Shown piece after piece: positions 24,615 through 28,816 of a stretch of DNA of 64,000 nt (positions are counted from its first letter, which is position 1; the number at the start of each line of letters is the position of its first letter). The translations under genes were made by a program, and so were the position numbers. The stretch is from NCBI RefSeq assembly GCF_024508665.1, contig NZ_JANINP010000003.1, positions 124,001-188,000 on the forward strand. Direction: 5' to 3'. The notes beneath the pieces were generated by a model, which saw only the letters and a list, made by a program, of their open reading frames with translations, was not told the DNA's origin and ran no database searches. The stretch comes from Sphingomonas sp. (GTDB lineage: Bacteria; Pseudomonadota; Alphaproteobacteria; Sphingomonadales; Sphingomonadaceae).

Positions 24615-25418
24615 GTGACCGCGCCATTTCGCTTTCCGCGCTTTTTCGTGACGTCACCGTCGCCGTGCCCGTATCTGCCGGGCCGGCAGGAGCGGAAGGT
24701 GTTCACCGAACTCAACGGTCCGCACGCCAGCGAACTGAATGACGCGCTCGGCCGGATTGGCTTCCGCCGCAGCCAATCGGTCGCCTATCGTCCCAGCTGC
24801 GCGGGATGTTCGGCCTGCGTCTCCGTCCGCGTCGTGGCGCCCGAGTTCAAACCCAATGCGAGCCAGCGCAAATTGTTGCGCCGCCATGCCGATCTCGAGA
24901 TCACTGCCTGTAATCCCTGGGCAACCGACGAACAGTTTCAACTGCTCCGCCGCTATCTCAGCGCGCGTCATCCCGGCGGCGGGATGACGATGATGGACGA
25001 CGGCGATTATGCCGGCATGGTCGAGCAATCGCCGGTCAACTCCGTCGTCGTCGAATATCGCGAGCCGAGCCTGCATGGCGAGCGCGGGCGGCTGGTCGGC
25101 GCGTGCCTGACCGACCAGCAGGCCGATGGCCTGTCGATGATCTACAGCTTCTTCCTGGCCGATGATGAAAGCCGCCCGGGGCTCGGCAATTTCATCATCA
25201 TGGACCATATCCTGCGGTCGCGTGCCGCCGGCCTGCCCTATGTCTATCTCGGCTATTGGGTGAAGGGATCGGCGCGGATGGCCTACAAGACGCGCTACCG
25301 CCCGATCGAAGTGCTCGGCCCGTCGGGCTGGTCGTTGCTCGAGGACGAGGACGCGAACTACACGCCGCCGACGCACCCGGCCGAGCACGCACTGGCGGTT
25401 ACCGGCCAGTTCGCCTGA
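24615..25418 (+). CDS. bpt: Aspartate/glutamate leucyltransferase
   Basis: Transfers leucine from leucyl-tRNA to N-terminal Asp or Glu of proteins, marking them for ClpAP through the bacterial N-end rule. The 267-residue product starts [26 protein letters not shown] (family signature with its Cys) and has [26 protein letters not shown], and the acetyltransferase-fold C-terminus [20 protein letters not shown]. The start is GTG (GTGACCGCGCC). It is convergent with the transglutaminase-like gene; a palindromic repeat is between them. Confidence 0.93.
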
Positions 25419-25430
25419 AATTTCAGCACG

Positions 25431-25539
25431 GCGTCATTCCCGCGAACGCGGGAACTCATCTCTCCGACTTATCACAAACTTCACGGGCGTCGCTTGTCGA
25501 ACGCTCGGGTGCTGGGTGCCCGCTTTCGCGGGGATGACG
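25431..25539. repeat. Inverted pair of REP-like hairpins
   Basis: GCGTCATTCCCGCGAACGCG on the left (25431 onward) and CCCGCTTTCGCGGGGATGACG on the right (to 25539) form an inverted pair of the widespread CATTCCCGCG...CGCGGGAATG type. They fill the gap between the convergent bpt and transglutaminase-like genes and probably terminate both. Confidence 0.75.
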
Positions 25540-25540
25540 A

Positions 25541-26245
25541 TCAGCTTACCGACCTGACCCGTCCTCCGACCACCGCCGCCACGCCATTCAGGTCGATCGC
25601 GCTCGCGACGCGCGCGTGATCCTCGCCCGCGGATAGTCCGATCGCCGGATCAAATCCGATCCAACCGACATCGACGACATAAGCCTCGGCCCAGAAATGC
25701 GGCATCGCGCCTTCATCGCGGGCGAGATAGCCCGAGACGTATCGCGCCGGGTAGCTCAGGCGTCGGGCCGCGGCGACGAACATCCCGGCCAGCACGTCCG
25801 GACCGGAATCGCCCGCACGGCGATGGAGCGCTACGTTGAGCAGATGCAGGCGATCGATATCGCCATCCGTTTCCTCGATCGCGTCGATCGCCAGCGGAGC
25901 CAGGTCGGGCGCATCCGACTGGCCCGGCGATTGCCGCAGGAACAGCGACGGCGGCAGCGGCTCGGGGTGCGCTGCGCTGAGGATGCCGGAGGATGGACCG
26001 GTGAATATCTCGCCGCCAAGATGAATTTCGATCCGGTCGAGCGGGCCGTCGGCATAGAGCATCGTCAGGACGTTGCCATAGCCGTCGCGACCGGCGCTGA
26101 GGCGAGCGTCGCAATCGAGACCGATCCGCCAGCCGACGACCGTCTGGTCGTGATTATCCTCGGGCGTGACGCGCAGCGCCAAGGTTACGCGGGATAATGA
26201 AGCAGTAAAATCGACAGTGATCGTATGATCGACCGAGATCCGCAT
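25541..26245 (-). CDS. Transglutaminase-like protein lacking the catalytic Cys
   Basis: A 234-residue protein of the bacterial transglutaminase family. The N-terminal bact_transglu_N region is residues 1-80 (RISVDHTITVDFTASLSRVT). In the core, RLSYPARYVSGYL, the His in MPHFWAEAYV and the Asp in GWIGFDPA are conserved, but the segment that normally reads G-V-C-x-D is replaced by D-S-G-P-D (25796-25813), with no Cys nearby. The frame is intact, so this looks like a pseudoenzyme, not a decayed gene. It is the third member of an ATP-grasp/alpha-E/transglutaminase operon and its ATG overlaps the alpha-E stop by one base. Confidence 0.82.
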   Translation of the reverse strand: MRISVDHTITVDFTASLSRVTLALRVTPEDNHDQTVVGWRIGLDCDARLSAGRDGYGNVLTMLYADGPLDRIEIHLGGEIFTGPSSGILSAAHPEPLPPSLFLRQSPGQSDAPDLAPLAIDAIEETDGDIDRLHLLNVALHRRAGDSGPDVLAGMFVAAARRLSYPARYVSGYLARDEGAMPHFWAEAYVVDVGWIGFDPAIGLSAGEDHARVASAIDLNGVAAVVGGRVRSVS

Positions 26246-27180
26246 CAGGCGAACTTGAACTGCCGGCCGATCGCGAAATGCAATTCGGCATTCTCTTCGA
26301 TGAACGATTCGAGATATTGGTGCAGCCCGCCCAGGATCACGTCGGCCGATCGGGTCTTCATCATCCGCGCGTGGCGTCCGCGCGCCATCCGGTCGGCCTC
26401 GCCATGATGTCCGGTGCGTTTGGCGAGCAGGGACAGCAGTTCGACCGTTTCCTCGACCGATGCGGCCAGGCTGCGCGGCAGTTCGGAGCGCGCGATCAGC
26501 AGATCGATGACGTTCGCCGGCGACAGCCCGTCCGAATAAAGCCAGCGATACGCGGTCACCGCCGACACCGTCTGCAGGATCGTGGTCCATTGGTCGCGGT
26601 CGACGACCCCACCCACCATCTCACCTTCAGGCAACAGGATATGATATTTGACGTCGAGCAGGCGCGCGGTGTTGTCGGCACGCTCGATCGCCTGGCCGAG
26701 CCGGATGAACCAGGTCGTCTGGTTGCGCAGCATGCGATGGATCGCGCCTTCGAACCCGCGCGTCTCCGCCTTGACGGCTTCGGCCAGGTTCAAGGTCGCT
26801 GTGGCGCCGCCGGGCGACGAGCGGCTGTCGAACAACAGCCAGGCGCGATTGATCCCGGTCCAGGCGTCGCGGGTCAGCGCAGTGCGCACCGCACGCGCAT
26901 TGGTCCGCGCCTTGTCGAGGCATTGTATGATCGACCCCGGATGGCTGGTGTCCAGCGTCAGGAAGCGCGCAACCGCCTGCTGCCCGAGCGTCGCGCCGGA
27001 GGCTTCGAACGCTTCCTGCGCGTCGATCACCGCGAGCGCGCTCGCCCAGGCGATCTCACCGGCCGGGCGCGGCGAGAGGACGTCGAGGCGGACGGTCGCT
27101 TCGACGAGGCGCGCGATGAAGTCCGCGCGCTCGACGTAACGGCCGAGCCAGTAGAGCGACGATGCCGTGCGCGAGAGCAT
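26245..27180 (-). CDS. Alpha-E domain protein
   Basis: A 311-residue all-helical alpha-E protein, starting MLSRTASSLYWLGRYVERAD, with ETRGFEGAIHRMLRNQTTW, LGQAIERADNTARLLDVKYH and an ending LESFIEENAELHFAIGRQ. Alpha-E proteins were described (Iyer, Aravind and co-workers, amidoligase survey) as constant partners of circularly permuted ATP-grasp enzymes and transglutaminases in a predicted peptide-bond-forming system. The ATG at 27180 is preceded by GGAGGAATTGT, which is part of a palindromic repeat. Function remains predicted. Confidence 0.85.
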   Translation of the reverse strand: MLSRTASSLYWLGRYVERADFIARLVEATVRLDVLSPRPAGEIAWASALAVIDAQEAFEASGATLGQQAVARFLTLDTSHPGSIIQCLDKARTNARAVRTALTRDAWTGINRAWLLFDSRSSPGGATATLNLAEAVKAETRGFEGAIHRMLRNQTTWFIRLGQAIERADNTARLLDVKYHILLPEGEMVGGVVDRDQWTTILQTVSAVTAYRWLYSDGLSPANVIDLLIARSELPRSLAASVEETVELLSLLAKRTGHHGEADRMARGRHARMMKTRSADVILGGLHQYLESFIEENAELHFAIGRQFKFA

Positions 27181-27185
27181 TACAA

Positions 27186-27339
27186 TTCCTCCCCGGCACG
27201 GGGAGGGGGACCGAGGCGCGCAGCGGCTCGGTGGAGGGGGCTTGCGACACACGGGCAGCAGCCGAGGAGGTAGCCGAAAGATGGGCCCCCTCCACCACTC
27301 GCTCCGCGAGCGGTCCCCCTCCCCGTTCCGGGGAGGATT
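27186..27339. repeat. Palindromic element with two internal hairpins
   Basis: Ends are TCCTCCCCGGCACGGGGAGG and CCCCGTTCCGGGGAGGA. Inside, ACCGAG-N11-CTCGGT (27210-27232) is followed by a spacer and then ACCACTCGC-TCC-GCGAGCGGT between CCCCCTCC and CCCCCTCCCC. The same plan recurs at 51703-51842. It sits inside the ATP-grasp/alpha-E operon and its left end supplies the alpha-E ribosome-binding site. Confidence 0.85.
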
Positions 27340-27352
27340 TGGGACTCAACCC

Positions 27353-28816
27353 TCATGCTTGCACCTGGAAATGCGCGGGGCCGTTGTCCAGCAGCACGAA
27401 ACTGTCCTTGGTCCCGCCCCCTTGCGACGAATTGACCACCAGCGAGCCTTCGCGCAGCGCCACGCGGGTCAGGCCGCCGGGCACCACTTGGATGCCCTTT
27501 GACCCGGTCAGCACGAACGGACGGAAATCGACATGGCGGGGAGCAAGCCCTTGCTCGACCAGCGTTGGAACCGTGGACAAGGCGAGCGTCGGTTGCGCGA
27601 TGTAACGCTGCGGCTCCGCGACCAATGCGGCGCGGAAACGTTCGATCTCGTCCCGTGAAGCGGTCGGCCCGACCAGCATGCCGTAACCGCCCGACCCGTC
27701 GACCAACTTCACCACCAGTTCGTCGAGATGGTCGAGCACATATTGCAGCGCCTCTGGCTCGCGGCAGCGGAATGTCTGGACGTTGGGCAGCTTGGCTTCG
27801 GCGCCGGTATAATAGCGCACGATTTCGGGCATGTAGGAATAGATCGCCTTGTCGTCCGCGATGCCGTTGCCTGGCGCGTTGAGTAAAGCGACATTGCCCG
27901 CCGCATAGGCCGCAATCAGGCCGGGCACGCCAAGCATCGAGTCCGGACGGAACACCAGCGGATCGAGATAATCGTCGTCGATCCGGCGATAGATGACGTC
28001 GACCTTCACCCGCCCGGCGATCGTCCGCATCCACACGATATTGTCGTCGACCACCAGATCCGCGGCCTCGACCAGCTCGATACCCATCGAATCGGCGAGG
28101 AAGCTGTGCTCGTAATAGGCCGAATTATAATGGCCGGGCGTAAGTACGACGCAGACCGGATTGCTTCCCGTGCCGGGCGGGGCGACCGACTTCATCGTCT
28201 GGAGCAGGAGATCCGGATAGGAATCGACCGCCGCGACGCGGAACTGGCGGAACAGCTCGGGGCACAAGCGCAGCATCGCCTCGCGATTTTCGAGCATGTA
28301 GCTGACGCCCGACGGCGTTCGGGCATTGTCTTCCAGTACGAAGAAATCGTCGGGCCCGGTGCGGACCAGATCGATCCCGCAGATATGCGCCCAGATGCCG
28401 TGCGGCGGTCGCATCCCGGCGATCTCCGGCCGGAATTGCGGATTGCCGAAGATCAGATCCTCGGGCAGCACGCCGTCCTTCAGGATGCGGCGCGCGCCGT
28501 ATATGTCGTCGAGGAAAGCGTTGATCGCCTCGACCCGCTGCACCAGCCCGGCGGAGAGCCGCGCCCATTCGTCGGCCAGGAACACGCGCGGCACGATATC
28601 GAACGGAATGATCCGTTCGCTCGCATCCTCATCGCCATAGACCGCGAAAGTGATGCCGAGCTGACGGAAGGTAACCTCGGCCGATTGCTGGCGGCGCCTC
28701 AATTCGGCGGGGTCGGTGACATCCAGCCATTCGCCGAGCGCGGTCAATTCGGGACGAACGAGCCCAGCACCCGAAGTGCCCATGATCTCGTCAAACGCCG
28801 GCCCAATTCCCACCAA
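27353..28816 (-). CDS. Circularly permuted ATP-grasp protein
   Basis: A 487-residue enzyme of the circularly permuted ATP-grasp type 2 family, predicted to form amide bonds using ATP. Family marks are YGDEDASERIIPFDIVPRV near the N-terminus, EDNARTPSGVSYMLENREAM, VLTPGHYNSAYYEHSFLAD, NAPGNGIADDKAIYSYMPEIV and the GSGGYGMLVGP loop, ending SLVVNSSQGGGTKDSFVL. It lies upstream of the alpha-E and transglutaminase-like genes on the same strand. The start is TTG at 28816 or the next codon, GTG; neither has a clear ribosome-binding site. Substrate unknown. Confidence 0.88.
   Translation of the reverse strand: MVGIGPAFDEIMGTSGAGLVRPELTALGEWLDVTDPAELRRRQQSAEVTFRQLGITFAVYGDEDASERIIPFDIVPRVFLADEWARLSAGLVQRVEAINAFLDDIYGARRILKDGVLPEDLIFGNPQFRPEIAGMRPPHGIWAHICGIDLVRTGPDDFFVLEDNARTPSGVSYMLENREAMLRLCPELFRQFRVAAVDSYPDLLLQTMKSVAPPGTGSNPVCVVLTPGHYNSAYYEHSFLADSMGIELVEAADLVVDDNIVWMRTIAGRVKVDVIYRRIDDDYLDPLVFRPDSMLGVPGLIAAYAAGNVALLNAPGNGIADDKAIYSYMPEIVRYYTGAEAKLPNVQTFRCREPEALQYVLDHLDELVVKLVDGSGGYGMLVGPTASRDEIERFRAALVAEPQRYIAQPTLALSTVPTLVEQGLAPRHVDFRPFVLTGSKGIQVVPGGLTRVALREGSLVVNSSQGGGTKDSFVLLDNGPAHFQVQA

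Follow-up and report, generated by a model that had tools for sequence, protein, structure and literature searches.

The gene analyzed here, P0001, lies at positions 25541..26245 on the minus strand of the window, that is, the whole 64,000-nt stretch of Sphingomonas DNA under study, and encodes a 234-residue protein of the transglutaminase fold that lacks the catalytic cysteine. It is the third gene of an operon on this strand, after those for a circularly permuted ATP-grasp protein (27353..28816, minus strand; PF14403/PF04174) and an alpha-E protein (26245..27252, minus strand; PF04168, 266 bits). The start codon of the ATP-grasp gene is uncertain, with TTG as listed, and the alpha-E protein possibly starts further in, because its Pfam match opens at residue 25. 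The frame of P0001, read from 26245 to 25541, is open over 234 codons and closed by a stop codon, and its ATG shares one base with the TGA of the alpha-E gene (TGATG). Together with the Pfam assignments of the neighbors, this agrees with the first-pass annotation, which had described an intact frame with a coupled start in an ATP-grasp/alpha-E operon. Two Pfam domains were matched above the cut-off in P0001, Bact_transglu_N at residues 4–79 (40.2 bits) and a truncated Transglut_core at residues 149–200 (43.4 bits), the latter covering only the second half of the profile (positions 54–108). By sequence and fold P0001 belongs to the family defined by the N-terminal domain plus core (PF08379 + PF01841), its core being partial, and the linked ATP-grasp and alpha-E genes known from the Anbu operon are present beside it. 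The search of NCBIfam at an E value of 0.01 returned no name for any of the operon's proteins.

The region downstream from P0001 contains a convergent gene of the arginyl-tRNA-protein transferase family (ATE_N + ATE_C; window 24615–25418, plus strand), and a match was found at the same convergent position in all six flanked relatives (L015–L020). Between this gene and P0001 (window 25433–25538) the 20-base motif GTCATTCCCGCGAAnGCGGG is present as two inverted copies, with 0 and 1 mismatch, as compared to 0.1 copies expected; the pair resembles the termini of a small repetitive element, or else a terminator acting in both directions. Because genes of Burkholderia cenocepacia are described as NtrC-dependent in a published report (PMC5491218), the window and locus L010 were searched for a sigma-54 consensus. 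Its matches were at chance level, with 20 found versus 21.7 expected in the window and 1 versus 2.6 in L010, which left the idea of sigma-54 control without support.

The residues of the Cys-His-Asp triad are incompletely represented in P0001. His183 (codon 25697..25699, minus strand) and Asp199 (codon 25649..25651, minus strand) were found, as the first-pass annotation had proposed, while the catalytic cysteine is absent and the sole cysteine of the protein is C45 in the N-terminal domain. The same annotation had read the G-V-C-x-D segment as changed to D-S-G-P-D. The alignment with full-length orthologs showed instead that P0001 and its seven nearest relatives are without 19 residues of the linker, including the GVCQD segment, so that the linker is 35 residues long in the cysteine-containing rows and 16 residues long in this clade. 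Since these residues are absent, D-S-G-P-D is the joint left behind by the deletion and not an altered motif. The deletion site (25802..25819, minus strand; loop residues 143–148) is located just before the helix that would open with the cysteine (residues 149–162 in P0001), and the alignment also showed that the clade is without the C-terminal tail of the orthologs. The same deletion was found in S. pruni, S. mali, S. asaccharolytica and four further genomes, making eight genomes with that of P0001. At residue 169 (P0001 numbering) seven of the eight clade members (L015–L020 and L026) have PARC, while P0001 and 92% of the full-length Cys-less rows have PARY. The AlphaFold2 model of P0001 has a pLDDT of 89.9 and a pTM of 0.87, it superimposes on the structure 3ISR along the entire chain (215 residues, Z 19.5), and its longest predicted helix has 14 residues.

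The comparison of Sphingomonas genomes showed that the cysteine was gone in 67 of the 71 genomes read at this site, and was kept in four (G016, G049, G048 and G063). The 71 genomes are not a random draw, as they comprise G821 and 70 of the 145 genomes, among 151 of the genus, that gave a match to the P0001 gene; the four cysteine-containing genomes are among these 70. Three of the four cysteine-containing genes belong to a remote part of the tree, which means that the contrast within the genus is mostly not one between close orthologs. At the cut-offs used, genome G003 of the genus gave no match to the P0001-type transglutaminase, to Anbu, or to the fused gene described below, and it apparently is without the system altogether. 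Outside the genus, the cysteine was kept in 77 of 89 rows in the row set of a 156-row tree. It was also kept in 62 of 66 further loci, seven of which are genes already read, and one of the four Cys-less loci among them belongs to the genus. The Cys-less genes from outside the genus are distributed over the same family (G439, G466, G475, G411, G412, G518, G578 and G418) and five other families (G180, G384, G227, G184, G866, G728 and G716). No alpha-E or ATP-grasp gene was present within the 5.8 kb read around the Cys-less gene of G411. A Cys-less copy (GTPKD) accompanied by ATP-grasp, alpha-E and an Anbu-like gene was found on a contig titled Candidatus Marinimicrobia (L021); it groups with alphaproteobacterial rows, and the contig is perhaps mis-binned.

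The residues that replace the cysteine across the Cys-less rows are P, A, S, G, Y, T and V, and the full-length copies of the genus have P, A, S, G or V, mostly followed by R-D (R in 54 of 61). In six genus copies (L197, L204, L207, L208, L209 and L211) a cysteine is found one position past the catalytic site, which gives xCD in place of RD. This cysteine was rejected as an alternative nucleophile, because the six rows fall inside the Cys-less clade and seem to derive from a change of R to C in the RD pair. When the states of the site were mapped by parsimony on trees that were quick searches with many open forks, and that left out three f58 losses from the 66 further loci, nine changes were counted on a tree of 192 rows built with the site columns removed, three of them forced by well-supported branches, eight on the 156-row tree, and ten on an alpha-E tree of 153 rows. 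Other cysteine-containing transglutaminase types, which the class-wide search also matched (among L107–L124), were excluded from the trees below 150 bits, and the 213-row alignment left out L022–L025 and L056, which repeat genes represented by other rows; L022–L025 had been included in the alignment with the orthologs. Across the genomes compared, this loss has come about repeatedly, and every genome in which it did so carries another gene cluster of this type.

To describe what has been conserved, 32 columns that are at least 95% conserved in 81 cysteine-containing rows were compared with the same columns in 73 full-length Cys-less rows. In the latter 21 of the 32 columns stay at 90% or above, while the positions of G-V-C-Q fall to 0.18, 0.04, 0 and 0.08, respectively, and the D directly after them is at 0.92. 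On the other side of the site the His, Trp, Glu, Trp and Asp columns remain at 0.96–1.00, the His, both Trp and the Asp being at 100%. The His and Asp were also present in all 213 aligned rows and all 66 further loci. Seven conserved columns besides G-V-C-Q also drop below 90%, the lowest of which (0.38) is a Gly near the C terminus. The dN/dS values against six relatives were 0.14–0.27 for the P0001 gene, 0.085–0.13 for alpha-E, and 0.03–0.10 for ATP-grasp, the last from four of the six relatives, as two contigs end. Hence, the P0001 gene is under purifying selection, and it is the least constrained of the three genes of the operon. The non-catalytic or altered role that had been suggested for P0001 is well supported by the absence of the cysteine, the deletion of the nucleophile loop, the retention of the predicted fold, and the purifying selection. 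The loss is not peculiar to this copy, but is shared by most of the genus and found again outside it.

The genome of P0001 contains on another contig (C2) a fused ATP-grasp/alpha-E gene of 839 aa, followed by a transglutaminase gene with GVCQD, and the genome yielded no more than two alpha-E genes. The cysteine-containing paralog that the first-pass annotation had recommended searching for is therefore present, as a part of a second ATP-grasp/alpha-E/transglutaminase system. A transglutaminase with GVCRD is also encoded about 40 kb from the P0001 operon (L009 2784–4385, minus strand; contig C3, about 109 kb), and the 7 kb read there contained no ATP-grasp or alpha-E gene. With the fused gene counted at E 1e-90 or better, and the third genome set searched at 1e-55, it was present in 82 of 82 Cys-less genomes (41/41, 37/37 and 4/4 in the three sets) and in 37 of 137 cysteine-containing genomes (5/38, 5/43 and 27/56), where three genomes of the third set that are counted as cysteine-containing without the fused gene (G839, G805 and G781) may hold another subtype. 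The resulting table covers 219 genomes; G003 has neither gene. In G083 the ATP-grasp/alpha-E gene of the second system is split into two adjoining open frames (C1:773428-775880).

The association with the fused gene was seen at several levels of comparison. Within the genus the fused gene was present in 67 of 67 Cys-less genomes versus none of the four cysteine-containing ones, and outside the family, in the first two sets, in 4 of 4 versus 6 of 40 (one-sided p = 0.0015). When families were counted by hand over all sets, a Cys-less member was found in 5 of the 22 families with the fused gene and in none of the 27 without it (one-sided p = 0.014). The third set alone gave a one-sided p of 0.065, and the well-supported branches provided 3 and 5 pairs, none contrary to the link, which are too few for significance. 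The link is one-way, as the fused gene is also carried by the 27 cysteine-containing genomes of the third set mentioned above. The transglutaminase adjoining the fused gene had GVCQD in all 20 stretches fetched, 19 of which were from Cys-less genomes. The loss of the cysteine seems to require the second system, although this system alone does not seem to be enough.

The distribution of Anbu was compared using a query whose clear relationship to known Anbu structures was established with five solved Anbu-type chains. The counts refer to the first two genome sets, and at E 1e-15 Anbu was matched in 77 of 81 cysteine-containing versus 8 of 78 Cys-less genomes. The Cys-less genomes with Anbu were 0 of the 66 in the genus and 8 of the 12 others, while all four cysteine-containing genomes of the genus had it. 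The genome of P0001 gave no Anbu match at E 1e-15, and its sole PF00227 protein was rejected as Anbu, because it is HslV, encoded beside hslU. Because eight genomes are Cys-less with Anbu and only four are cysteine-containing without it, the distribution suggests that the cysteine was lost first and Anbu later; on the trees the independent pairs for the two losses are too few for significance, and one pairing is contrary.

Several explanations for the state of P0001 were weighed against these observations. That it results from a sequencing or assembly artefact can hardly be entertained, because the same deletion is present in eight genomes, including that of P0001, and nothing was found in favor of it. 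A sequencing error in one copy among cysteine-containing orthologs, which the first-pass annotation had kept in view, is ruled out in practice, and so is a single-copy accident, since the nearest orthologs are also Cys-less and so is most of the genus. It is also improbable that P0001 is still an enzyme that uses another nucleophile or a cysteine from elsewhere in the chain. The full retention of the His/Asp pair, the presence of C45 in 58 of 61 full-length Cys-less genus rows and of C169 in seven of the eight members of the P0001 clade, and the six genus rows with a cysteine one position later could be taken to support such activity. However, the residues found at the site itself are P, A, S, G, Y, T and V, and C45 is already present in 6 of 8 close cysteine-containing relatives. 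Moreover, no cysteine is common to all eight clade members, as C45 is absent from S. asaccharolytica and C169 from P0001, which rules out for this clade an alternative cysteine in the same site, a possibility also raised at the outset.

The main rival is a slow decay, in which the second system made the old operon redundant and its transglutaminase degenerates stepwise, losing the cysteine, then Anbu, and then the loop and tail. This is a real but minor possibility. It would be consistent with the highest dN/dS of the operon, with the additional 19-residue deletion and lost tail in the P0001 clade, with the lack of Anbu in all 66 Cys-less genomes of the genus, and with the second system in every Cys-less genome tested. 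However, the dN/dS of P0001 is well below 1, every copy read has an open frame, the His, two Trp and Asp are invariant in the Cys-less rows, and the predicted fold is confident; the gene is also matched in 145 of 151 genus genomes (70 of the 145 read, four with the cysteine). Somewhat less probable still is a role of P0001 as a ligand or substrate sensor, whose His-Trp-Asp face would bind an amide or peptide product of the ATP-grasp enzyme and control that enzyme. Such a role could explain why the nucleophile segment was lost while His, Trp, Glu, Trp and Asp were held at 96–100%, and a genetic phenotype is reported for RloABC, another ATP-grasp operon that encodes an inactive transglutaminase (PMC12239564). 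However, these residues may simply form the core of the fold, and the inactive transglutaminase of that operon, RloB, is another kind of protein, one that has seven transmembrane helices.

Judging from the sequence comparisons and the predicted structure, we consider it rather probable that P0001 is a retained non-catalytic pseudoenzyme of the transglutaminase fold, which belongs to a stripped-down, relic operon of the Anbu type. In the best reading of the data, the transglutaminase reaction of this operon can either be dispensed with or is provided by the second system. The acquisition of the second system may have made the cysteine of the first transglutaminase dispensable, after which the cysteine and then Anbu would have been lost. 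With less weight, P0001 could persist as a putative subunit of the ATP-grasp/alpha-E ligase with a binding or scaffolding role; any thiol reaction that the cell still needs might be performed in trans by the cysteine-containing paralog. The fastest dN/dS in the operon and the loss of 19 residues and the C-terminal tail count against a pseudoenzyme subunit, and also fit slow decay. A bolder proposal, which we put forward only tentatively, is that the two ATP-grasp/alpha-E systems of a cell share one catalytic transglutaminase. In this view, whenever a fused system with an active transglutaminase is present, the transglutaminase of the older operon of the Anbu type would repeatedly become a partner subunit without catalysis, and Anbu would be lost afterwards. 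If this is true, the rule that the cysteine is not lost without a second system, which held for 82 of 82 Cys-less genomes, would mean that the two systems are functionally coupled. P0001 is a real and conserved variant, without the cysteine, within a known family, and the repeated origin of this variant and its tie to the second system are more interesting than the gene alone. Genomes that are without the transglutaminase nucleophile, and mostly without Anbu, yet contain ATP-grasp and alpha-E, reveal which steps can be separated from each other, and indicate an interplay of two systems that is open to simple knockouts.

Among the closest known systems is the Anbu operon, which consists of ATP-grasp, alpha-E, transglutaminase and Anbu genes (Iyer et al. 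2009, as cited in PMC5666114 and PMC6376114). Its transglutaminase is homologous to P0001, and the gene order with respect to ATP-grasp and alpha-E is identical, while P0001 is without the cysteine and the active-site loop, and no Anbu was found in its genome. These two papers propose a peptide-synthesis or tagging system without a proven product, and, together with PMC8665760, they give no known product or proven function of Anbu-type operons. The NtrC dependence mentioned above (PMC5491218) and the fact that marine metagenomes show urea-metabolism domains occurring together with these operons (PMC3597751) hint that Anbu-type operons are tied to nitrogen limitation. In the open-access papers searched we met neither this Cys-less case nor its connection to another system of this type. 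Such proteins are not new in kind, however, because an inactive transglutaminase of an ATP-grasp operon is already known. A published report (PMC12239564) ascribes a genetic role to RloB of the RloABC operon, which provides a precedent for the retention of a transglutaminase domain without catalysis. Both RloB and P0001 have a transglutaminase domain encoded in an ATP-grasp operon, inactive in RloB and predicted to be so in P0001, but in RloB this domain is fused to seven transmembrane helices, while P0001 has 234 residues with no long helices in the model, and its neighbors are alpha-E and a circularly permuted ATP-grasp. Human protein 4.2 (EPB42), a catalytically inactive relative of transglutaminases (PMC10318531), shares with P0001 a transglutaminase core, predicted in P0001 to be without catalysis, and gives a middling fold match (Z 5.8–6.4), but it is a large eukaryotic protein with no operon context. 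The transglutaminase-like protein of Cytophaga hutchinsonii (3ISR) has the same whole-chain fold as P0001, and differs from it in having the cysteine (AGVCRDFAH).
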